From: Pedobacter yonginensis
GTDB lineage: Bacteria > Bacteroidota > Bacteroidia > Sphingobacteriales > Sphingobacteriaceae
Assembly (NCBI RefSeq): GCF_003173595.1
Contig: NZ_QGNZ01000004.1
Location: forward strand, 62,001-126,000
Direction: 5' to 3'
Length of the DNA: 64,000 nt
The translations under genes and the position numbers were made by a program. The notes below the pieces were generated by a model. That model had not been told where the DNA came from. It ran no database searches and saw only the letters and a list, made by a program, of their open reading frames with translations. Positions 37,013 to 64,000 of the stretch are shown one piece after another (the stretch's first letter is position 1; every line of letters begins with the position of its first letter).

Positions 37013-39124
37013 ATGGACTTTGATAGAGACAATGCCGTTTTCCTTCAGGCATTCGAATTGATAAATTCGACGGACAAAGATATATTTATTAGCGGTAAAG
37101 CGGGGACAGGTAAGACCACTTTTCTTAAGGCGCTCAGGACAAATACCTTCAAAAGAACCTTGGTGGCTGCGCCAACTGGGGTGGCGGCAATAAATGCCGC
37201 CGGAGTTACAATACATTCACTGTTCAATTTGCCGCGCAACCCCTTTGTTCCCGAGAACATGGAGATTTTCCATGCCAGAAACTTGGACAATACCACCAGG
37301 GAGATCATAAGAAATCTTGAATTACTGGTAATAGATGAAGTTTCAATGTTACGCTGCGATACCTTAGATGGGATTGATTATGTGTTGAGAAGAGTAAGGA
37401 ACAATCAGGCAGAGCCATTTGGAGGTATACAGGTCGTTTACATAGGAGATCTTTTTCAGCTTTCTCCCATAGCTAGTGACACAGATGCCGCAATATTGAA
37501 GAAATATTACTCGGGACGTTTTTTTGTGGACTCGAATGTTTATCAGCTTACCAATCCCATATATCTTGAGCTTATCAAGGTTTATCGGCAATCCGACCCT
37601 GAATTTTTGGACATTTTAAATGCTGTACGGGAAAATAAATGTTCAGCTTCCCATTTTGAACTACTTAACGGCTACTGTAAGCAAGAAGCAAACAACAATG
37701 CCATTACTTTGACCACGCATAACAGAAAGGCGGACCTGATCAATGAATCAAACCTGTCGAACATTGGTTCGCCAGAAAAGGTTCTAAGCGCAAAAATTGT
37801 CGGGACTTACCCTCCTGAATTATATCCCACATCAAAGGAATTAAAGCTTAAGCTTGGCGCCGTTGTCATGTTGTTGAAGAATGACAGAAGCAAGGTCAAA
37901 AGGTATTATAATGGCAAAACAGGGATAGTAGTCAAAATCGAGCCGCACAAGCTGACAGTTGATTTGGGCGATAATGACCTGTTGGAACTTGAAGAGGAAG
38001 TATGGGCCAATACAAGGCAGAGGGTAGATCTGGAAACTCAGACCGTGAGTGACGAACAAGTAGGTAGCTTCCAGCAATTTCCCGTTAAATTGGCTTGGGC
38101 CATAACGATACACAAAAGTCAAGGCCTGACTTTTGATAATCTTATCATTGATGCAGGCGAGACATTTGCCGAAGGACAGATCTATGTTGCCCTAAGCCGA
38201 TTGCGTTCCCTAGCAGGCTTAACCCTGAAGGAGCAGTTAAGTCCGGCATTGGTAAAAATTAATCCAAGGATCAAGCTTTTCACCGATAACAATCCCGGAT
38301 CCATGCTTAGCAAAGATATTCTGCAGAACTTACAATGGGGGTTCGCTGGAAGAATTTTAGCCAAGCTATTTGATATGAGCGATCTAGAGCATTATATTGG
38401 AGCCGCCCAAAATCATCCCCTATCGATTGTCAGTTCATCCTACCGCTCTTTGTCCGATCTATCCGATACTTTTAAAAAGTTTTGCGTGGAACTCTCCGAT
38501 ACATTCAAATCTGATGAAAAAGATTTCCATAAGGTTTTTGAAAGAGCATCTGCAGCTGCGGGCTATTTCAGTCCCCAACTAAATTCATTACTGGATCAAT
38601 TAAGGGCATTTGATAAGGCCCACGCAGATGATATCAATTACAAAAATCAACTTCCTGCATTAAGGAATGTAAAACGTTACGCCCAGGGTAAGTTGACGGG
38701 ACTGACAACCGCAAAAACTTTTACGGCCAGCTTGCAAACCGGTAAAAATCCGGGAGAAGCAATGGCGATGTTGAGAAAGGTAGGTAAGTCCATGATCGGG
38801 ACAAGTCAAGCAAACCTCATGGGCGTTTCAGCCCAAGCTAAAAACAGTCTGGAAAGAGAAAGCCTTGATCTATTTAGATCAGGTAAAAGCATACAGGAAA
38901 TCAGCCATTTGACCAAACTTGGAATTCCGACAATTGAATTCCACTTGACAACTTTTCTAGGCACCGGGGAACTGGATGTTCTTGAGCTTATGGACAGCTC
39001 GCAGTTCGAAAGGATAAAGTCTGTTATTGAACAGGGGAACACTTCGCTATCAGAAATCAGGAGGCAGCTTGGGGGCACCGTTTCATTCGGGCAGATCAAT
39101 GCAGTCATTGCCCATCTCTCCTGA
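37013..39124 (+). CDS. Pif1/RecD-like superfamily 1 DNA helicase with C-terminal HTH
   Basis: 703 residues. Motif I GKAGTGKT is at 28-35, motif Ia is in AAPTGVAAINAAG, Walker B is LLVIDEVSML (Asp 108, Glu 109), and motif III is VVYIGDLFQLSP. Motifs V/VI appear in AWAITIHKSQGLTFD and YVALSRLRSLAGL. These are Pif1-type 5'-3' helicase motifs. The C-terminal ~120 residues include an HRDC-like region and an HTH similar to the RecQ C-terminal HTH (GKSIQEISHLTKLGIPTIEF). Chromosomal Bacteroidota carry such helicases too, but this one sits 93 bases before the Argonaute operon on the same strand, so it may supply unwinding for that system. Confidence 0.88.
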   Translation: MDFDRDNAVFLQAFELINSTDKDIFISGKAGTGKTTFLKALRTNTFKRTLVAAPTGVAAINAAGVTIHSLFNLPRNPFVPENMEIFHARNLDNTTREIIRNLELLVIDEVSMLRCDTLDGIDYVLRRVRNNQAEPFGGIQVVYIGDLFQLSPIASDTDAAILKKYYSGRFFVDSNVYQLTNPIYLELIKVYRQSDPEFLDILNAVRENKCSASHFELLNGYCKQEANNNAITLTTHNRKADLINESNLSNIGSPEKVLSAKIVGTYPPELYPTSKELKLKLGAVVMLLKNDRSKVKRYYNGKTGIVVKIEPHKLTVDLGDNDLLELEEEVWANTRQRVDLETQTVSDEQVGSFQQFPVKLAWAITIHKSQGLTFDNLIIDAGETFAEGQIYVALSRLRSLAGLTLKEQLSPALVKINPRIKLFTDNNPGSMLSKDILQNLQWGFAGRILAKLFDMSDLEHYIGAAQNHPLSIVSSSYRSLSDLSDTFKKFCVELSDTFKSDEKDFHKVFERASAAAGYFSPQLNSLLDQLRAFDKAHADDINYKNQLPALRNVKRYAQGKLTGLTTAKTFTASLQTGKNPGEAMAMLRKVGKSMIGTSQANLMGVSAQAKNSLERESLDLFRSGKSIQEISHLTKLGIPTIEFHLTTFLGTGELDVLELMDSSQFERIKSVIEQGNTSLSEIRRQLGGTVSFGQINAVIAHLS

Positions 39125-39156
39125 AACTATACTTTTAAAAAGTTTTTTGTATTTTG

Positions 39157-39206
39157 CTTGCGAAACTTAGCAAGACTTCTTATCTTTGCTTGTGAAACTT
39201 AGCAAG
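39157..39206 (+). promoter_or_regulatory. Promoter and twin operators of the Argonaute operon
   Basis: Two almost identical 18-base elements, CTTGCGAAACTTAGCAAG (39157-39174) and CTTGTGAAACTTAGCAAG (39189-39206), each with inverted ends CTTGC / GCAAG. Their centres are 32 bases apart, about three helical turns. The sequence between and next to them contains TATCTTTG (39181-39188), a perfect Bacteroidota -7 box, so the operators bracket it and cover the -33 region. This is the layout expected for repression by the XRE protein whose ATG is at 39218. Confidence 0.8.
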
Positions 39207-39217
39207 GTTTATTGATT

Positions 39218-39559
39218 ATGGAAAATTACGGAGGTTATTTTAAGGCGCTTAGAGAATCAAAAGGCATGACATTACGGGAAGTCGAAAAAAGAACGGATGT
39301 GTCAAACGCTTATTTGAGCCAATTGGAGTCGGGAAAGATTAAGCAGCCGTCACCATTGACATTGCACAAGCTTTCTGAAACGTATGAAGTCGGTTATGAA
39401 ACCTTGATGGAAAAAGTCGGGTACCCGGTTCCGGAAAGATTGTCAAGGAAACAGGAAGAAGATAAGGGTTCAATTGCTTACAGGGTGGGCAGTATTACAA
39501 ATGATGAAGAAGTAGAATTGCTGAACTACCTTAAATTTATGAGAAGTCGAAAAAAATGA
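39218..39559 (+). CDS. XRE-family repressor heading the Argonaute operon
   Basis: 113 residues from ATG 39218; a TTG six bases upstream is less likely. The N-terminal HTH is clear (LRESKGMTLREVEKRTDVSN, then AYLSQLESGKIKQPS). The C-terminal half is a short helical tail ending LLNYLKFMRSRKK. It probably binds the twin operators at 39157-39206 and represses the operon until a trigger releases it. The stop overlaps the next start by 4 bases (ATGA), so it is translationally coupled to the Fe-S nuclease gene. Confidence 0.88.
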   Translation: MENYGGYFKALRESKGMTLREVEKRTDVSNAYLSQLESGKIKQPSPLTLHKLSETYEVGYETLMEKVGYPVPERLSRKQEEDKGSIAYRVGSITNDEEVELLNYLKFMRSRKK

Positions 39560-40533
39560 TTTGGTCAATATCTGGATATAAGCAGTTTAATAGGTGTGAG
39601 CGACAATGGTACTACAGTAACATCGTCGCCCATGCAATGGTAAAGAATGATGCTTTCCGGAAGGAAGTCACCATCCTTTCCAAACTGCAGACTATTGAGG
39701 CATGGCGGGGAACTATTGTCGATGAAGTCATCAGCAGGGTGCTTGTCAATGCGATCAACAGAAAAATTCCGATAAGAAAAGAGTATTTCATTGATCAGGC
39801 CATGCAGGCCTTTGATCGCCAGCTAGAATATGCGGTATTTCAAAAATATAGACTTCCAGAAAGTAAATTAAATACTGATCCCGATTTCGCGGCTCTGCTG
39901 GATTGTGAGTATGGAGTTGATTTGTCGGATGATGCCTTGGAAAGTGCGAAAATGGACATCAGATCGGCATTGACCAATTTGCTGGATAATATGGACTTTA
40001 TAGCTTATTTGCAGACTTCGAAACATTTGATCAGTCAGAGAACCCTTGTATATCCGGTAGATCGGTTCAATGTAAGGGCCATACCCGATATGATCGCCTT
40101 TTTTGAGAACGAACCTCCGCATATTTTTGATTGGAAGGTACATACTTTCGGGACGGTATCATATGATGAGCAATTGATTTCCTATGCGGTAGCACTGTAT
40201 AAGGTTGCAACCACCAGGCCCCATTCGGATTTCCCTTCAAACATTGGGTCTTATAAACTAACTGACTATAAACTAACTGAATACCAACTTCTGCATAACG
40301 ACAGAATTAAAAGAGACTATGAGGTTACCAATGCCAATCTAGAAGAATTAGGGGACAAAATTTCAAGCAGTATCATGGAGATGTATATTACTGGTTGTCA
40401 TAAAAAATACAGTCAACTCGATTCTGGAAAGTTTGCAACCACATCATATTTTGAAAATTGCCAAAATTGTCCATTTAAACGAATCTGTAAATCGAATGAT
40501 CATGAACTACGAAACAGTTATCTTTCCACTTAA
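39556..40533 (+). CDS. Cas4/AddB-like PD-(D/E)XK nuclease with Fe-S cluster motif
   Basis: 325 residues. Cys 14 near the N-terminus (GYKQFNRCERQWYY) and a C-terminal cluster CQNCPFKRIC (Cys 302, 305, 311) give the four Cys that hold a 4Fe-4S cluster in Cas4 and AddB nucleases. The active site is AIPDMI (Asp 178), FDWKV (Asp 192, Lys 194) and QLISYA (Gln 206, Tyr 210). The His usually found in the first motif is Asp 56 here (WRGTIVDEVI). The family cuts or resects DNA ends. It overlaps the XRE gene by 4 bases and the Argonaute gene by 32 bases. A role in generating guide or target DNA ends is plausible but inferred. Confidence 0.85.
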   Translation: MIWSISGYKQFNRCERQWYYSNIVAHAMVKNDAFRKEVTILSKLQTIEAWRGTIVDEVISRVLVNAINRKIPIRKEYFIDQAMQAFDRQLEYAVFQKYRLPESKLNTDPDFAALLDCEYGVDLSDDALESAKMDIRSALTNLLDNMDFIAYLQTSKHLISQRTLVYPVDRFNVRAIPDMIAFFENEPPHIFDWKVHTFGTVSYDEQLISYAVALYKVATTRPHSDFPSNIGSYKLTDYKLTEYQLLHNDRIKRDYEVTNANLEELGDKISSSIMEMYITGCHKKYSQLDSGKFATTSYFENCQNCPFKRICKSNDHELRNSYLST

Positions 40534-42910
40534 CAATCTGGATCAGTTATCCGCGGACTACGTACTTTATGAGATCGTAGGATTGACTGATTCTGATGAA
40601 GATTTTGATAGCAACATTCAGTATATTGTTAAAAATCTTTCCTATAAACTGAAGCATCCGGTAACTTCTATCGAAAGGGATGGAAAACCTTTACTTGTTG
40701 TCAGGAATGATTCCGAGATCATAGAGAACTTACCAGCAGACATTATGGTCAAGCGAGGTATTATGGCCTGTTTTCGCAGGATTGGTGATCCGATTATTCT
40801 GGATTTTGTTAATTACGATGAGTCAAGTAAATCAATAATCTTAAGATTTCTTCAATTTGACCTGCAGACCGAGCTGAATAAAAATCCAGCTTTATGGCAG
40901 CCGAGTTCGGGTGATGCCTTCTTTAATGATGAGGCTCGCGAAACAATCGGTAACGTTTCGGTTTTTAATGGGTTTTTTGTTCGTGTTGTAGAACTGCCAG
41001 ATGGTGGATTCGGACTTGCAATCGATGTGACAAAGAAATACATCTCACGTGATCCCTTAAACGTAAAGCTCACACGTCAACAGTTTAAATCCGAGGGTGT
41101 AAAAAGCTCACATCTGGTCTATCAATATGGGCAACATAAATATGAAATCAGGGCCGATCATTTTAGTGATCTTAATGCTTCCGAATATAGGTTTAACAGA
41201 CCTTCGGATGGTAAATCGGTTTCCCTATTACAAGATACATTGGAGAGATTTGGTAATCCAATGCCTCCTTTTGTCGCAAACCTGCCTGATGACGCATCTG
41301 CGATTATTTACAAGACTAATGATAATCAAGAAAGACGCGTGATAGCAGGCCTATGTTATCGAGTGTTTGACACAGAAGACCCTCAGATACGAAAGATCCA
41401 CAAGAAGTCGATCATTATACCTTTTTACCGCAGAATGTTGATAAAGGCCGTAAGAAATCGTTATTTGAAAAGTTTGCGTTACGGAAATGTCCAGCTTAAT
41501 ATTTCCCCAACACCAGTTTTGGTCGAAAAGACAAAGTTTCCTTCACCTGACCTATTATTTGGAAAAGGTACTGTGTTAACAACAAATAATAGTGATGGGG
41601 CAATTAGGACAAGCATTGATAATTTAGGGAGAAAGCGAAAAAACCTGCTGTTGGATAAAAATGTCGGATTTTACACCACTGCAACTTTTCAGACACAGTA
41701 TTTTGTTGTACCCCAAACTATCTTTAATATGTATGGCAATCGGAAATTCTTTTTAGAGCATTTGATTTCCCAGGTCGACATCATGCACCCGACAGAATCC
41801 GGCTGGAATCCAAACGTTATCACCTATGACGATCGGGGTAAAAAGAACGCTATAGAGATTGGTTTTGAGATCTTACAGAAAATCAAGGAGGGTATTACAA
41901 AGACAGGGGGATATGCGCTGGTTATGCTTCCCTCAAATGTAGAAAGGGTGAAAAGACAGCACGATGATCTTGCCGCTTTAGTCGTTTCTGGATGTCACGA
42001 AGATCATTCGATTACTGCAAGTATTATGCATAGTGATACTTTGGAAGAATGTTATATCCACAAGTCAGTACAAGGTGCATCAACATACGAAGTACGTAAT
42101 GATTTAAAGGGTAAGTATTCCGGGTATATCTTGGGTGTTGCTATAAATCAAGTATTGCTAAATAATGAGAGATGGCCCTATATATTAAATATGCCATTAA
42201 ATGCTGATCTCACGATTGGTATTGACGTAAAAAAGAAGCTTGCTGGTTTTACCTTTGTCGATAAGTTTTCGAAAAATATCCTAACAAAATTCGATAAATC
42301 TGATAATAAAGAGCGATTGTCATCAGGACAAGTGGTAAAAATGCTTGTAAAAAATATTGCATTATTATGCAATCATTCAAGTTCACCAGTAGAAAAAATT
42401 GTCATTCATCGGGATGGACGACTTTTTACCTCTGAAAGAGATGGAATATTGATGGCGATAAAAATATTGAAGGAAAAGGATATTATACCACAAACAGCTT
42501 CAGTCAGCTTCGTTGAAATTCCTAAACATTCAATTTCGCCATTTCGGTTATTTGATGTGACAAAAGAATATGATATCAAACAGCAAAGAGTGGACAACGG
42601 GCTAGTTTTGAACCCAGAAATTGGTTCCTATGTAAAGATAAATCCTAAGGAAGCTTTTCTGTGCACAACCGGGAGAGAATTTAGTCATGGAGGTAGTTCT
42701 AATCCATTATACGTGAAATACAGTTCTGGAACATTGAGTTTGGACAATATATTGCAGGATATTTATTTTCTTTCTTGCTTAGCGTACACAAAGCCTGATG
42801 ATTGCTCTCGATACCCTGTTACAATCAAGATTACAGATAGACGGATCAATACACTGGGTAGTCCATATGACGAAGAATACCTGGATATTTTAAAGTCAGT
42901 AAACATTTAA
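40502..42910 (+). CDS. ago: Long prokaryotic Argonaute (pAgo) with apparently complete PIWI tetrad
   Basis: 802 residues from ATG 40502 (804 from ATG 40496). The N-terminal ~400 residues would hold the N and PAZ-like regions. The MID region carries YIHKSVQG, where Lys 521 and Gln 524 fit the guide 5'-phosphate pocket. The PIWI domain shows Asp 575 in LTIGIDVKKK, Glu 604 in SDNKERLSSG as the likely glutamate finger, Asp 638 in IVIHRDGR and Asp 779 in IKITDRRIN: a DEDD tetrad, so target cleavage is predicted. Such proteins use small guides to recognise foreign nucleic acid. Guide and target type (DNA or RNA) cannot be read from sequence. It is the third gene of a six-gene operon. Confidence 0.9.
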   Translation: MNYETVIFPLNNLDQLSADYVLYEIVGLTDSDEDFDSNIQYIVKNLSYKLKHPVTSIERDGKPLLVVRNDSEIIENLPADIMVKRGIMACFRRIGDPIILDFVNYDESSKSIILRFLQFDLQTELNKNPALWQPSSGDAFFNDEARETIGNVSVFNGFFVRVVELPDGGFGLAIDVTKKYISRDPLNVKLTRQQFKSEGVKSSHLVYQYGQHKYEIRADHFSDLNASEYRFNRPSDGKSVSLLQDTLERFGNPMPPFVANLPDDASAIIYKTNDNQERRVIAGLCYRVFDTEDPQIRKIHKKSIIIPFYRRMLIKAVRNRYLKSLRYGNVQLNISPTPVLVEKTKFPSPDLLFGKGTVLTTNNSDGAIRTSIDNLGRKRKNLLLDKNVGFYTTATFQTQYFVVPQTIFNMYGNRKFFLEHLISQVDIMHPTESGWNPNVITYDDRGKKNAIEIGFEILQKIKEGITKTGGYALVMLPSNVERVKRQHDDLAALVVSGCHEDHSITASIMHSDTLEECYIHKSVQGASTYEVRNDLKGKYSGYILGVAINQVLLNNERWPYILNMPLNADLTIGIDVKKKLAGFTFVDKFSKNILTKFDKSDNKERLSSGQVVKMLVKNIALLCNHSSSPVEKIVIHRDGRLFTSERDGILMAIKILKEKDIIPQTASVSFVEIPKHSISPFRLFDVTKEYDIKQQRVDNGLVLNPEIGSYVKINPKEAFLCTTGREFSHGGSSNPLYVKYSSGTLSLDNILQDIYFLSCLAYTKPDDCSRYPVTIKITDRRINTLGSPYDEEYLDILKSVNI

Positions 42911-43292: not shown

Positions 43293-44432
43293 ATGTATAC
43301 TTATATCAATGGAGCCATCAAGGAATCGATAGGTAAAGGAAAAGCTTTGATGGAGAAAATACCTGGAGCCCGAGATTTAGGTATATATTTTTCTCCATTA
43401 GCAACTACAGCGAATCGTGAGATTGATGGTATAGTTGGGGAGCTTGATCACCTATACAATGATGTCGTGTACAATAATCCAGTAAATATTCGTCAGAAAT
43501 TTTACCAGTTTAAACGTTTAGCTGGTAAAATGGCGGATATTGAAAATGTTGTAATTGCTGCTATGAGCAGAAAGGATAAGGATGACGAGTTTATTAATAA
43601 GCTGGTTCATCAAATCTGTACAGAAATTGACTATCCTTTGCCAACACCAGTTGCATCTTGTCTATCTCAAAAGTATTATCACATCTATCCTTTTTATAAT
43701 CTAATTTGCATACCGTTATTGGAATCGGAGTTTCTGTTACACCTTCCAGATATTTATCATGAACTTGGGCACCCACTTCTTTCTTTGGATAATCCTAAAG
43801 TTGAGCCTTTTCAGAGCAGCCTTGGGTATTTCAACATCGAGATTAAAAAGCATTTCGAGGCGGAGATACAACGTCGAACATTAAACCAAACAGCCGAAAC
43901 GGAATTTGATCCGATTTATATATACAAAGACTCGTGGTTGGAAAATTGGTCTGCTGAGTTATTTTGTGATTTGTACGCTACGTACACACTTGGCCCCGCT
44001 TACGTATGGTCTAATTTACATATGTGTACAAAGATGTCTTGGGATGTTTACAAGATTCCCACCTACCAGAAAACCTCCCATCCACCTGATGAAGCAAGAA
44101 TGAAGGCTATCCTATTCGCTCTTGAATTAATAGGGTTTAAAGATGATGCTGACCAGATTAAACAAAAATGGGAGGAATTCAAAAAGATCATTGTGGCAGT
44201 GAAATCAGATGAAAGCGAATTTGCAATTGCTGTACCTGAGATTCTATTAAAAAGTGCGGCAGAACATTGTCTTATCGGAACTAAAAACATCGGTTCAGAT
44301 ATCCCCACAGTTGGAGCGACCCACAAAGTGTATACGCTTTTGAACGAAGCCTGGAAGCAATTTTGGTCTAACCCTGAAGACTTTTACAATTGGGAACACA
44401 AAGCATACGGAGAATTTAAAGCCAACCTATAG
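43293..44432 (+). CDS. HELGH metallopeptidase-like protein in the Argonaute operon
   Basis: 379 residues, no signal peptide. The zinc-binding motif HELGH is at 156-160 in LPDIYHELGHPLLS, and a candidate third ligand lies in NWSAELFCDLYATY (Glu 222, Asp 226), the E-x-x-x-D pattern of gluzincins. Downstream, SHPPDEARMKAILFALEL is a helix often seen in intracellular metallopeptidases that carry HPP-x-x-x-R. The N-terminal ~110 residues are helical. It lies between a small helical protein and a subtilisin, 5 and 20 bases away. A protease cascade triggered by Argonaute is the simplest reading, but this is inference. Confidence 0.78.
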   Translation: MYTYINGAIKESIGKGKALMEKIPGARDLGIYFSPLATTANREIDGIVGELDHLYNDVVYNNPVNIRQKFYQFKRLAGKMADIENVVIAAMSRKDKDDEFINKLVHQICTEIDYPLPTPVASCLSQKYYHIYPFYNLICIPLLESEFLLHLPDIYHELGHPLLSLDNPKVEPFQSSLGYFNIEIKKHFEAEIQRRTLNQTAETEFDPIYIYKDSWLENWSAELFCDLYATYTLGPAYVWSNLHMCTKMSWDVYKIPTYQKTSHPPDEARMKAILFALELIGFKDDADQIKQKWEEFKKIIVAVKSDESEFAIAVPEILLKSAAEHCLIGTKNIGSDIPTVGATHKVYTLLNEAWKQFWSNPEDFYNWEHKAYGEFKANL

Positions 44433-44452: not shown

Positions 44453-45649
44453 ATGAAAAAAAAATATATAGTATTGTATTCTACGGAAACGGTGGAGAAG
44501 CAATCTCTGGATAATGGAAAAACTTTGAGTCCGTCATTTAAAGCTCTAAGTAAGGAAGTATTAAAAGCAAAATTCGATATCTCAGTACAATCTTTAGACG
44601 ATCAGAACGAACAGGAATTTTTGAAAAGCAATCAAAACGTTATTGCCATTGCTCCAACTATTCCACTAAAACTTATCAAACCTAAAAAGATAGCAGCAGG
44701 ATCAAAAAAGCCTTCAGACGAGTATCTCTGGAATATTGGTGCGGTCGGTGTCACATCATCTTCGTATAGTGGCAAAGGGATCAAGATAGCGATCTTGGAC
44801 ACTGGAATTGATAATTCGCATCCAGCTTTCAATGGTGTAAACATTATAGAGAAAGACTTTACCGGCGAGGGAAATGGTGACACAAACGGCCATGGGACAC
44901 ATTGCGCTGGCGTTGCCTTCGGCAGAGACGTTGATGGACATCGCATCGGTATAGCGACTGGAGTAGAAGAGGTTCTGATTGGAAAGGTACTGGGTCAGGA
45001 CGGTGGAAGTACCGATATTTTGATAGATGCAATCCATTGGGCGGTCAAGAACGGGGCCCATGTTATATCCATGTCCCTGGGAATAGATTTTCCTGGTTAT
45101 GTTGCGGAGCTAGAGAAGGAAGGTATGCAGACCGAGGCAGCGGTATCCCATGCATTGGAAGGATACCGGAAAAATATATTGTTGTTCGAACGGCTGGCGA
45201 ACCTGATAAGGACACAGGCCAGTAACAAATCTACCCAACCTGTGCTAATTCTAGGTGCAGCTGGGAACGAAAGTTCAAGGCCAGACTACAAAATTGCGGT
45301 AAGTCCGCCTGCGATATCGGACGGCATCGTTTCAGTCGGTGCACTAGGCGCTAAGGGGAGCGGATATTATGTTGCAGAATTTTCAAATACCGGAGCTACG
45401 CTTTCCGCACCTGGTGTCGATATTATATCTGCTGAAATTGGCGGTGGCTTGGTGTCTATGGACGGTACAAGTATGGCTACCCCTCATGTTGCGGGGATCG
45501 CAGCGCTATGGGCAGAAAAATTAATAACTAAACGCCAGTTCAACCTTAATAATCTCCTTGCCCATCTGACTGCTTCCTGCGATGATTTAAAATTGTCGAA
45601 AGAGCAACCTGAAGATTTTGGAGCAGGCATGGTACAGGCCCCTAATTAA
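44453..45649 (+). CDS. Subtilisin-like (S8) serine protease without signal peptide
   Basis: 398 residues. The catalytic triad is clear: Asp 116 in IAILDTGIDNSHP, His 147 in NGHGTHCAG and Ser 340 in GTSMATPHVAG; the oxyanion Asn is in GAAGNESS (Asn 272). Residues 1 to ~95 could be an inhibitory propeptide or a sensor region. There is no signal peptide or membrane anchor, so it should act in the cytoplasm, which is unusual for a subtilisin. It is the last gene of the Argonaute operon, and repeat copy B starts 200 bases downstream. The pairing with Argonaute suggests an effector that kills or is activated on infection. Confidence 0.92.
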   Translation: MKKKYIVLYSTETVEKQSLDNGKTLSPSFKALSKEVLKAKFDISVQSLDDQNEQEFLKSNQNVIAIAPTIPLKLIKPKKIAAGSKKPSDEYLWNIGAVGVTSSSYSGKGIKIAILDTGIDNSHPAFNGVNIIEKDFTGEGNGDTNGHGTHCAGVAFGRDVDGHRIGIATGVEEVLIGKVLGQDGGSTDILIDAIHWAVKNGAHVISMSLGIDFPGYVAELEKEGMQTEAAVSHALEGYRKNILLFERLANLIRTQASNKSTQPVLILGAAGNESSRPDYKIAVSPPAISDGIVSVGALGAKGSGYYVAEFSNTGATLSAPGVDIISAEIGGGLVSMDGTSMATPHVAGIAALWAEKLITKRQFNLNNLLAHLTASCDDLKLSKEQPEDFGAGMVQAPN

Positions 45650-61675: not shown

Positions 61676-62760
61676 TCAAATGCTTTCAGAATTTTCGTCA
61701 AGATAGAACTCCATTTTACCAAGTACCGATCGGCTATAGTTTGTTTCCCGACCACTGTATATTCTTAAATCTGGTAATTTTTCGTCAATATATCTGGACT
61801 TGCTCATTGGCAGTTTATAATCACCGCCAGTGGTAACCTGGATTGATTGCCAAGATACGGGATCAGATATGCTGAACATGCTAGAAAGCTCAGGGCATAA
61901 CCCTTTGGAGGCATTTTTTTTAACAGGAAAACAAGGTTATGAAATTCCCCATCAGACCTTATTGTTTTAGCTGGGATATTTGTTGAGTTATATTTAATTC
62001 CATCCACTTCATTTTCATTTCTCACCCATTGTAACAGCAATTGCGGGATGATATATTCAGGCTTAAAATGGCTATTTGGATTAGAAACTTTTAACGAACA
62101 GGCGGCAATTAACGGCCATGCCATCAGGTATCCAAAAACTTTTGTGTTATATAAACCACTCGTAAAATCCGGAGGAGTAAGGTCGATGTAGGTCACTACA
62201 TCAGTGTTCTCTAATTTTGAAACTTGAAAGATATTCAAATCAGGTCTTTTTAATTCCTCCCAGCAAACGTAGATAGTCTTGCCCAAATAAAGAGATGGAA
62301 ATCCAGGGATACTATAGCGCTGAGTGGCCACATTTCCCCTCAATTCAAAAGGAATGTGGAACATTTGGTTTTTTTTATAAAGGAAGTTGTCCGTTCCAAT
62401 TCTACTTCTGTAAAAAGATTCCCCGATTTCGTATTCTCCTATACGGATCATAGATTTGTTTTTCGCAACTCGATTGGAGATTGTGTCTGCAAGAGCAAGA
62501 TAGGCCTCTGAAGGTTTTCCGGCATAATAAAGATCTATGGCGTCAGTTATACCGTTTAAAAATTCTTCCTGTCGTTCCATCGTGCGACTGATTGTAACAC
62601 TAGACAATAAACCTTTAACATTTTTCAAATCTGTTACCTCAGAAAGCAGATTCAAATATTGCTCAAAAATTTTCTTAATGTACTTTGCGTAATTACTTAT
62701 TTTAGGAATTTCCTTCGGAAGAACGAATAACGGATCATTGAAAAGCTCCTCAAATGTCAT
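61676..62760 (-). pseudogene. RES-domain protein gene with a frameshift in a poly-A run
   Basis: From ATG 62760 the frame runs to 61804 and ends abnormally (AVIINCQ). One base out of frame, sequence continues as KNASKGLCPELSSMFSISD, then PVSWQSIQV and onward to a stop at 61676; this is the expected end of RES proteins. The shift falls in eight A residues (T8 at 61914-61921 on the plus strand); a ninth would restore a 361-residue protein. RES core features: SFYRSRIGTDNF (Arg/Ser region), FPSLYLGKTIYVCWEE and the later PAKTIRSDGEFHNLVF. RES enzymes degrade NAD+. The N-terminal ~120 residues are helical. It lies 8 bases after an ATPase gene, so it is probably its effector. Confidence 0.7.
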
Positions 62761-62768
62761 AATAGTTT

Positions 62769-64000
62769 CTATTTAATTGCATATTTCCTTTCTCTTTGTT
62801 TGAAAGCCTCTCCCCCTCCCTCCAAAATATCGGTTACATGCTCCTTTACACCTTGCCGATGTAAAATGTTCGTACCATTATTAGTGAAGCTATGTTCTAA
62901 AGAACCATTCACATATTCAAACCTCATTTGATTGGTCTCTACCGTATTACTTTGCCCTGCTTGATTTGCAATAATAATATTTTCGCTGTCTGTAGCAACA
63001 ACTAGATTTGCGTTATGTGAAACGATAATAATTTGTCGTTCCTTTTTTTTGTTTTTAATCATTTGACACAGCAGATCATATATGGTTCTATTATCGAGAT
63101 TATCTTCAGGCTGATCTATCAAAATTGGATATTCTGCAGAACTAATCTGTAAGAACAAGATTAATAGAACAGTACCTTTTTTGCCCGGAGACATTGTTAA
63201 TAGATTATCGAGTTTATACGTTACTGTATAATCTATTTCAAACTCATCTTTGATCAGGCCGCGAAGTATACTTTCAAAATCAATATTTAATTTGAGTGGG
63301 ATCTGTATTTCTGAGCTTATAATTAATTTGTCATCCACTACCCGTATAGGTAGTGCCGTTATCTTTAATAGCTCCCCATAGTCTAAGAACCCATTTTTAA
63401 ACAGGGAATTGAAAAAATGATCCCTCGATATCGCTGATTTGTTTGCAAAATCAAATAACGGTTGTTGCTGATCTTTATATATTAGTTCCGCACTTAATTT
63501 AATCTCTGATCCAATTTCACTCTTTGTCGAATTGATAGTAGAGACAAGGCTTTTATACTCTTCGAATCTTTCGCTCAAAAACCTCACAAGTTGAGCTCTT
63601 GTACTTTCGTAATCTTTTGATAATTCTTTAAGCTGTTTTTCAAGATTCTCGGAGAATTCCTTTTTCTTTGTTTCTGCTTGTAATTGTAGCGTAAGCTTTT
63701 TGAGCTCTTCCTGCCCTGCAATTTTTCCGAGGTAGGGGCCGAGCGAGATATTTAAAGCGGCGATTTCTAAAATAAGATCAGACTTTTGTTTTGCAGTATT
63801 AATCTTTTCGACCTCTTCTTTGAAATTCTTAATTAAAGTTTTATAATCTACCATTAATCTCTGTTTGATCTTCTTTAGTCCAACAGGTATTTCAGTGACT
63901 TCGTCAAGTAAACGGTCTATTTGTCCTTTCATAAAAGTGGTTTCCTCTTCCTGTTTACCAAGGAGATTGACCATATTTGCCAAAAGTTCAGCCTCAATTT
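62769..64000 (-). CDS. SMC-like/TrlF-type ATPase, C-terminal part (5' end outside window)
   Basis: At least 410 residues; the frame is open to the window edge, so the N-terminal P-loop part lies beyond it. A long coiled coil spans about two thirds of what is seen. The C-terminal ATPase half has SPGKKGTVLLILFLQIS (signature-type motif), then PILIDQPEDNLDN as Walker B and D-loop, and RQIIIVSHNANLVVATDSE as the switch His region. This is the pattern of large SMC/ABC-type ATPases such as the TrlF-like family. The last ~60 residues have a Lys/Arg-rich end. It forms an operon with the RES gene (8-base gap). Confidence 0.85.
   Translation of the reverse strand, partial: IEAELLANMVNLLGKQEEETTFMKGQIDRLLDEVTEIPVGLKKIKQRLMVDYKTLIKNFKEEVEKINTAKQKSDLILEIAALNISLGPYLGKIAGQEELKKLTLQLQAETKKKEFSENLEKQLKELSKDYESTRAQLVRFLSERFEEYKSLVSTINSTKSEIGSEIKLSAELIYKDQQQPLFDFANKSAISRDHFFNSLFKNGFLDYGELLKITALPIRVVDDKLIISSEIQIPLKLNIDFESILRGLIKDEFEIDYTVTYKLDNLLTMSPGKKGTVLLILFLQISSAEYPILIDQPEDNLDNRTIYDLLCQMIKNKKKERQIIIVSHNANLVVATDSENIIIANQAGQSNTVETNQMRFEYVNGSLEHSFTNNGTNILHRQGVKEHVTDILEGGGEAFKQRERKYAIK

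Follow-up and report, generated by a model that had tools for sequence, protein, structure and literature searches.

A small helical protein and a putative zinc protease accompany a predicted DNA-guided, RNA-cutting Argonaute on a Pedobacter conjugative element

The stretch analysed here, called the window below, comprises 64,000 nucleotides of Pedobacter yonginensis (NCBI RefSeq assembly GCF_003173595.1, contig NZ_QGNZ01000004.1, positions 62,001 to 126,000 of the forward strand) and carries a conjugative element of the Bacteroidota type. Genes for a MobA relaxase (12902), a type IV coupling protein (14194), RteC (48666), TraG (51242), TraJ (56143) and TraM (58195) flank its cargo on both sides, bearing out the mobile setting claimed in a preliminary description of this DNA. 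Within the cargo, genes for an XRE-family regulator, a Cas4-like nuclease and a long Argonaute are followed by genes for a small helical protein, a protein with an HExxH motif and a subtilase (Table 1). The Argonaute, taken on its own, is a further member of a known and rare group, the D-R prokaryotic Argonautes (pAgos), which are expected to cut RNA under the direction of DNA guides. The unusual part of the locus is the downstream pair of small and HExxH genes, which the preliminary description overlooked.

Table 1. The operon and its adjoining features, in window coordinates
Feature	Position	Strand	Evidence
Pif1-like helicase with C-terminal HTH_40, accessory	37013..39124	+	PF05970 2e-27, PF14493 1.9e-15
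Two operator-like imperfect palindromes CTTGYGAAACTTAGCAAG and promoter-like TATCTTTG (39181-39188)	39153..39213		Exact palindromes at 39157 and 39189
XRE-family helix-turn-helix (HTH) regulator	39218..39559	+	PF01381 4.4e-13; start set by the MENY start conserved in relatives
Cas4-like PD-(D/E)XK nuclease	39556..40533	+	PADLOC Aga_Cas4-like_Nuc 1e-124
Long Argonaute, predicted PliAgo group of D-R pAgos	40502..42910	+	802 codons; catalytic D575/E604/D638/D779; MID pocket H510/T513/Y542
Small all-helical protein, 121 aa	42922..43287	+	Between Argonaute and HExxH in 17/17 bacterial loci
HExxH protein, 379 aa, putative gluzincin-type zinc protease	43293..44432	+	H156, E157, H160, E222, D226, H263-P264, R269
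S8 subtilase, lineage-specific accessory	44453..45649	+	PF00082 4.3e-39; D116/H147/S340 triad motifs

What we observe of the operon is its gene content and gene order, the close coupling and shared inheritance of its genes, and predicted active sites that are intact. To map it we took every bacterial locus with an Argonaute match of E < 1e-24, which gave 17 distinct loci including the window, from sources contributing two loci, four (own included) among 148 relatives, five bacterial plasmids of eight records, and seven (own included) among 395 Bacteroidota; loci and genomes are denoted here by L and G numbers. At all 17 loci, which span Bacteroidota, Alphaproteobacteria and Cyanobacteria and include that of the studied RslAgo, the small gene and then the HExxH gene follow directly after the Argonaute gene. 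The gaps are -17 to +20 nt between Argonaute and small gene and -4 to +9 nt between small and HExxH gene (11 and 5 nt in the window). An XRE gene lies in front in eight loci (the window, L002, L003, L007, L008, L011, L030 and L036) and a sigma factor with its partner occurs in eight (L010, L012, L013, L024 and L031-L034); near the operon of a cyanobacterial plasmid (L009) no regulator was seen.

The association also holds at the level of genomes. The Argonaute and HExxH queries match the identical four of the 148 relatives, and all seven of the 395 Bacteroidota with a strong Argonaute match also have a strong HExxH match; one further genome of the 395 (G531) has HExxH with no Argonaute match. 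These two samples overlap, very distant HExxH genes could escape detection, and weak matches (Argonaute in G123, E 7e-5, and G446, E 4e-8; HExxH in G161 and G529) were not counted as belonging to the clade. The small protein of the G531 locus (L035) matches five of the 395 genomes, four of them at HExxH loci (its own included), the fifth match (G331) being weak and lying on another contig within a frame of 580 aa. Piwi (PF02171) matches 21 places in 19 of the same 395 genomes, and one of these places (L071) is a D-R locus. Neither the small nor the HExxH gene occurs in the 1.5-kb flanks of the 20 other Piwi loci, and L071 shows both genes in the same open-ended scan. Only two of the 19 genomes (G287 and G511) have an HExxH match, beside D-R Argonautes and not on the contigs of non-D-R Piwi genes. 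Viral contigs gave no HExxH or Argonaute match and phage records gave none. Across the 17 loci, distance matrices correlate with r 0.965 for Argonaute and HExxH and 0.910 for Argonaute and small protein (Mantel test), which indicates joint inheritance, not contact.

The Argonaute frame is open across 40433-42910, and we consider ATG 40502 the best start because residue 1 then pairs with residue 1 of PliAgo. The protein is colinear with PliAgo (PDB 7r8f) over residues 1-791 versus 1-774 (E 1.7e-122) and matches the PADLOC pAgo_II model with an E value of 0, in keeping with the full length that had been attributed to it. Its Pfam Piwi score of 22.6 bits falls below the cut-off of 28.9 bits, and a Pfam scan at that cut-off would therefore overlook it; a search of the host genome with the Argonaute returned only itself. 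Residues D575, E604, D638 and D779 align with D563, E592, D626 and D762 of PliAgo, the catalytic tetrad published in the main text of Lisitskaya et al. 2022 (PMC9360449), to which our statements on the group from that paper refer. They are invariant in 10/10 aligned rows, the window included. The preliminary description had proposed this intact DEDD tetrad and had named misassignment of one of its positions as what would refute it; all four fall on the published residues. Its claim of an active pAgo stands as regards the intact predicted catalytic DEDD, but the protein is not a generic pAgo: it is predicted to be of the D-R type with RNA as the expected target. The moderate working temperature it foresaw agrees with the Bacteroidota relatives and with the optima of 30-44 °C given for four studied D-R pAgos (PMC9360449).

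That description also took K521 and Q524 to form a MID pocket for a 5'-phosphate guide. The letters are present and are not conserved (Q524 is unique to the window, and K521 is kept in 4/6 group rows and 0/4 others), and we rejected a canonical (Y/H/R)KQK pocket at this place. The PliAgo group has no canonical residue of that motif and uses a different pocket, in which PliAgo holds the guide 5'-phosphate by R467, H498, S501 and Y530, with H498 and Y530 absolutely conserved in the group (PMC9360449). Counted along the 7r8f alignment, with the columns checked, the equivalents in the window are N479, H510, T513 and Y542; H510 is kept in 6/6 PliAgo-group rows and Y542 in 10/10 rows, and the two substitutions (R467 to N479, S501 to T513) affect the less conserved positions. 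Also kept are K577 (K565 of PliAgo, the group lysine beside the first Asp; 6/6 group rows) and K776 (K759 of PliAgo, the D-R lysine; 10/10 rows). Because these residues of the PliAgo group are retained, RNA cleavage would be expected at the 9'/10' site, shifted by one nucleotide in the direction of the guide 5' end, and a generic 5'-phosphate pocket would not be expected.

Phylogenetic placement among long pAgos had been suggested as a check, and a 40-row tree joins the window with L011, L002, L003, L030 and RslAgo (L007) in one group at 100/100; L007 was identified as RslAgo by its accession, WP_013921749.1, which matches the Methods of PMC9360449. This tree was built without PliAgo, and two (L066 and L068) of the 20 non-D-R Piwi loci were left out because they had no usable open reading frame (ORF). 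A 100/99 branch splits 17 D-R-type and five haloarchaeal Argonautes from 18 other Bacteroidota Argonautes, and all 22 Argonautes having the module fall on one side of it. With D-R membership, RNA and not DNA becomes the expected target, and the guides would be DNA. The window shares with the PliAgo/RslAgo group the colinear Argonaute, the DEDD tetrad, the unusual MID pocket and an operon in which an XRE HTH regulator and a PD-(D/E)XK nuclease precede the Argonaute, and adds the subtilase and the upstream helicase; the RslAgo operon itself contains the small and HExxH genes, although the main text of PMC9360449 does not mention them. The PnyAgo/HpeAgo group (L010, L012, L013, L024 and L031-L034) has the same order of Cas4-like nuclease, Argonaute, small and HExxH genes, but a sigma factor and partner replace the XRE gene, and its published members have an HKQK MID pocket (main text of PMC9360449).

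The HExxH protein of the window matched no Pfam family at cut-off and no PADLOC model. When ten members were compared with Pfam at E values up to 10, 16 families appeared, each in one member and none shared (best E 0.0042), and Peptidase M48 (PF01435) was not among them. Its profile gave nine weak matches to PDB sequences, none a named protease, the best being a synaptonemal complex protein (E 0.0034) over the helical N-terminal part. Among 22 aligned homologues (an alignment that leaves out L026 and L089-L091), HExxH, E222, D226, P264 and R269 are present in 22/22 and H263 in 21/22. The M48 metallopeptidases (HtpX/Ste24) have HExxH, E-x3-D and HP-x4-R in the same order, and all three align in hhalign (probability 57%, P 1.1e-4), whereas the N-terminal helical region lies outside the match; three unrelated profiles stayed below 1%. 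The profiles compared were built from the 7/9 M48 loci and 4/8 M78 loci with a usable ORF, and the rest were dropped. Conservation of the motif set in homologues, and its alignment with M48, make a gluzincin-like zinc protease a well motivated, though unproven, assignment. The ImmA/ImmR and IrrE/DdrO switches also combine an XRE repressor with an HExxH protein in one operon, but the window's protein aligns with M78 over 14 columns only (probability 15%) and PF06114 was matched by none of the ten members, and membership in the ImmA/IrrE family was rejected. AlphaFold2 models the small protein as five helices with a confidence score (pLDDT) of 92. A Foldseek search with it gave no match at E<=0.001, and its best VIA-align Z of 8.5 lies within the range expected of helical bundles; kinship with Cmr5/Csm complex proteins (Z 6.3-6.8) was not accepted.

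Six haloarchaeal plasmids carry an Argonaute of the wider clade together with an HExxH profile match (E 1.5e-12 to 2e-7). Those of Halosimplex, Haloplanus and Natrinema were found by Argonaute search and those of Halobacterium, Halorussus and Halorientalis by HExxH search, so that in the latter three the nearby Argonaute is the finding. The HExxH gene is convergent with the Argonaute gene and touches it in Halosimplex, Haloplanus, Halobacterium and Halorientalis; in Natrinema ~2.9 kb and an IS5 transposase separate the two, and in Halorussus the genes of the locus are broken. A second copy in Halosimplex (L026) contains an Argonaute that is split. Before each haloarchaeal HExxH gene lies a gene of 113-150 codons, which the bacterial small-protein profile does not match and which is only weakly similar to it in profile comparison (hhalign probability 16%, two decoys giving 0.1%). 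Near the loci of Halosimplex, Natrinema and Halorientalis a gene for the transcription factor TFB was seen (L027 4864-5853; L028 17028-17771; L089 2795-3736), which may correspond in these archaea to the sigma factor of the bacterial operons.

The G531 locus (L035 8576-11833) contains a sigma factor, its partner, a 136-aa gene, the small gene and the HExxH gene, with no match to Argonaute or Cas4-like nuclease, and a swap of the core is possible there. A tree made without L025 places the HExxH protein of G531 with those of sigma-type loci that are linked to an Argonaute (93/94, not starred). A GIY-YIG label given by eye to the 136-aa gene was confirmed by neither Pfam nor PADLOC and was not used. 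Genes for multiubiquitin, ThiF and DUF6527 are annotated beside the operon in L007 (13223-15402) and L010 (3279-5692), with similar-looking ORFs in L035 (6429-8431), perhaps as a shared defence island. A Sinorhizobium terangae plasmid (L025 1503-11330) encodes a divergent HExxH relative of 462 aa (PADLOC peptidase_U41, 4.4e-11) adjoining a large ATP-binding protein, a CHAT protein and a C25 peptidase, with no Argonaute profile match in the stretch examined.

At a probability of about 0.5, we read the locus as a transmissible immune operon built around a D-R Argonaute, with nuclease-supplied guides and an HExxH protease that the small protein restrains and RNA engagement switches on. The unit would consist of the XRE regulator, the Cas4-like nuclease, the Argonaute, the small helical protein and the HExxH protease, joined in the window by the subtilase. 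The nuclease may produce short DNA guides from invader DNA, as the discoverers of D-R pAgos also proposed (PMC9360449); this is plausible because D178, D192-W-K194, Q206 and cysteines 14, 302, 305 and 311, the last four suggestive of an Fe-S site, are invariant in 10/10 sequences. Loaded with such guides, the Argonaute would find invader transcripts and cut them one nucleotide off the usual site. Less certain is the further step, in which engagement of RNA by the Argonaute system would activate the HExxH zinc protease, until then held back by the small protein. The substrate we think likeliest is the transcription factor dedicated to the operon, either XRE or, in the sister group, the sigma partner, and its cleavage would serve as an amplifying on-switch; we favour this because an XRE or sigma gene is present in 16/17 loci and because G531 keeps sigma factor, partner, small and HExxH genes with no Argonaute match. 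Host proteins, cleaved to bring about dormancy, are our second choice of substrate.

Several observations weigh against this interpretation. The HExxH protein is constant although the regulator varies in type (XRE, sigma factor with partner, none seen in L009), an observation that counts against a single regulator as its fixed substrate. The haloarchaeal pair is convergent with the Argonaute and not in one operon with it, and its small gene corresponds in place and size only. As no Pfam model matches the HExxH protein and AlphaFold2, from a three-row alignment, reaches a pLDDT of 45 for it, its fold is unproven, and the hhalign probability with M48 is only 57%. Shared inheritance at one locus, finally, is no proof of joint function.

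The best surviving alternative, which we nevertheless think unlikely, resembles Craspase: target-bound Argonaute would free the HExxH protein from the small protein, essential host or phage proteins would be cleaved, leading to dormancy, and the regulator would be only an autorepressor. The position of the pair directly behind the Argonaute in 17/17 loci, its constancy while the regulator type changes, and the extra S8 protease in the operon of two relatives all suit this proposal, but G531 retains the pair with no Argonaute match, and an Argonaute that is itself predicted to be catalytic does not strictly require an extra effector. Craspase (gRAMP/TPR-CHAT) and CalpL/CalpT/CalpS, in published outline, likewise tie RNA recognition to a protease, Calp with a transcriptional response as well. 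In CalpL/CalpT/CalpS this reportedly involves sigma-factor release. The proteins of the window are different, namely an Argonaute predicted to be DNA-guided and a protein with an HExxH motif, and the likeness drawn here is one of idea. We regard it as improbable that the small protein is an antitoxin and the HExxH protein a toxin which together maintain the mobile element independently of the Argonaute. Such a role would fit a two-gene unit whose ends overlap or nearly touch (-4 to +9 nt), which occurs on plasmids and an integrative conjugative element and once without an Argonaute; an ordinary toxin-antitoxin pair would, however, be expected with many cargos, whereas in the genomes searched this one is near-exclusive to one Argonaute clade, for which reason we favour it least of the three protease roles (switch, effector, toxin-antitoxin), and its distances closely follow those of the Argonaute. 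That the two genes are mere passengers of a working unit of regulator, nuclease and Argonaute accords with the main text of PMC9360449, which names only a regulator or sigma factor and the nuclease and reports in-vitro RNA cleavage by purified RslAgo and PliAgo on their own, but is very improbable given that the pair is retained at 17/17 bacterial loci in Bacteroidota, Alphaproteobacteria and Cyanobacteria, that six haloarchaeal plasmids have an HExxH relative close to their Argonaute, and that 22/22 aligned HExxH proteins keep their catalytic residues.

Just before the XRE gene, two copies of CTTGYGAAACTTAGCAAG (two matches against 0.09 expected) stand 32 nt apart and flank or overlap TATCTTTG; TAnnTTTG is the promoter motif of Bacteroidota. 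Judged by eye, this regulator has a similar palindrome pair before it in L011, L002, L003 and L007; in L008 the pair is partial. Because this operator-like pair sits just before the XRE gene, the operon is probably autoregulated from the CTTGYGAAACTTAGCAAG sites, with the helicase outside it. A helicase homologue adjoins the operon in 8/17 loci including the window, on either side or strand, and its identity of 33-42% in the five relatives measured makes it much less conserved than the Argonaute, for which two reasons it was not counted as core.

Of L035 and the 16 bacterial Argonaute loci besides the window, only the congener L011 (7876-9087; 58% identity) shares the subtilase, which there likewise follows the HExxH gene. 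By eye neither copy has an obvious signal peptide, and two different putative proteases thus lie in one operon. Genes of 90 aa and 100-108 aa (membrane-like) replace it behind HExxH in L002 (13531-14109) and L003 (13923-14525). Behind the tra genes, window positions 61804-63983 hold a RES-domain-like gene (E 0.0033) and an SMC/AbiEii-like ATPase gene, both matches below cut-off, possibly a further defence or toxin pair. Scans for Rfam families and tRNAs found none in the window.

The words 'protease' and 'peptidase' are absent from the main texts of Makarova 2009 (PMC2743648) and Ryazansky 2018 (PMC6299218), and that of Lisitskaya 2022 (PMC9360449) contains neither these nor 'metalloprotease', 'HExxH' or 'hypothetical protein'. 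Literature searches returned no paper tying such an HExxH gene to Argonaute; figures, supplements, subscription papers and preprints lay outside their scope, so that prior mention is possible. The conserved putative protease arm of D-R Argonaute operons is thus the new part with respect to these three main texts.

The discoverers of DNA-guided, RNA-cutting Argonautes, whose published assays used the purified Argonautes, state that what these do in nature is still open (main text of PMC9360449), and a conserved putative protease partner offers a direct and testable answer. Somewhat more tentatively than for the locus itself, we suggest that D-R Argonautes may not be stand-alone RNA cutters but may serve as sensors in a protease system guided by nucleic acid, in which DNA-guided recognition of invader RNA would activate a dedicated zinc protease through a small helical partner, in bacteria and, in rearranged form, in haloarchaea. 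In-vivo assays of D-R Argonautes without the small/HExxH pair may then miss activity. If Argonaute-triggered proteolysis is true, Argonautes would join the guided systems that act by proteolysis, as a counterpart of the CRISPR-linked proteases.

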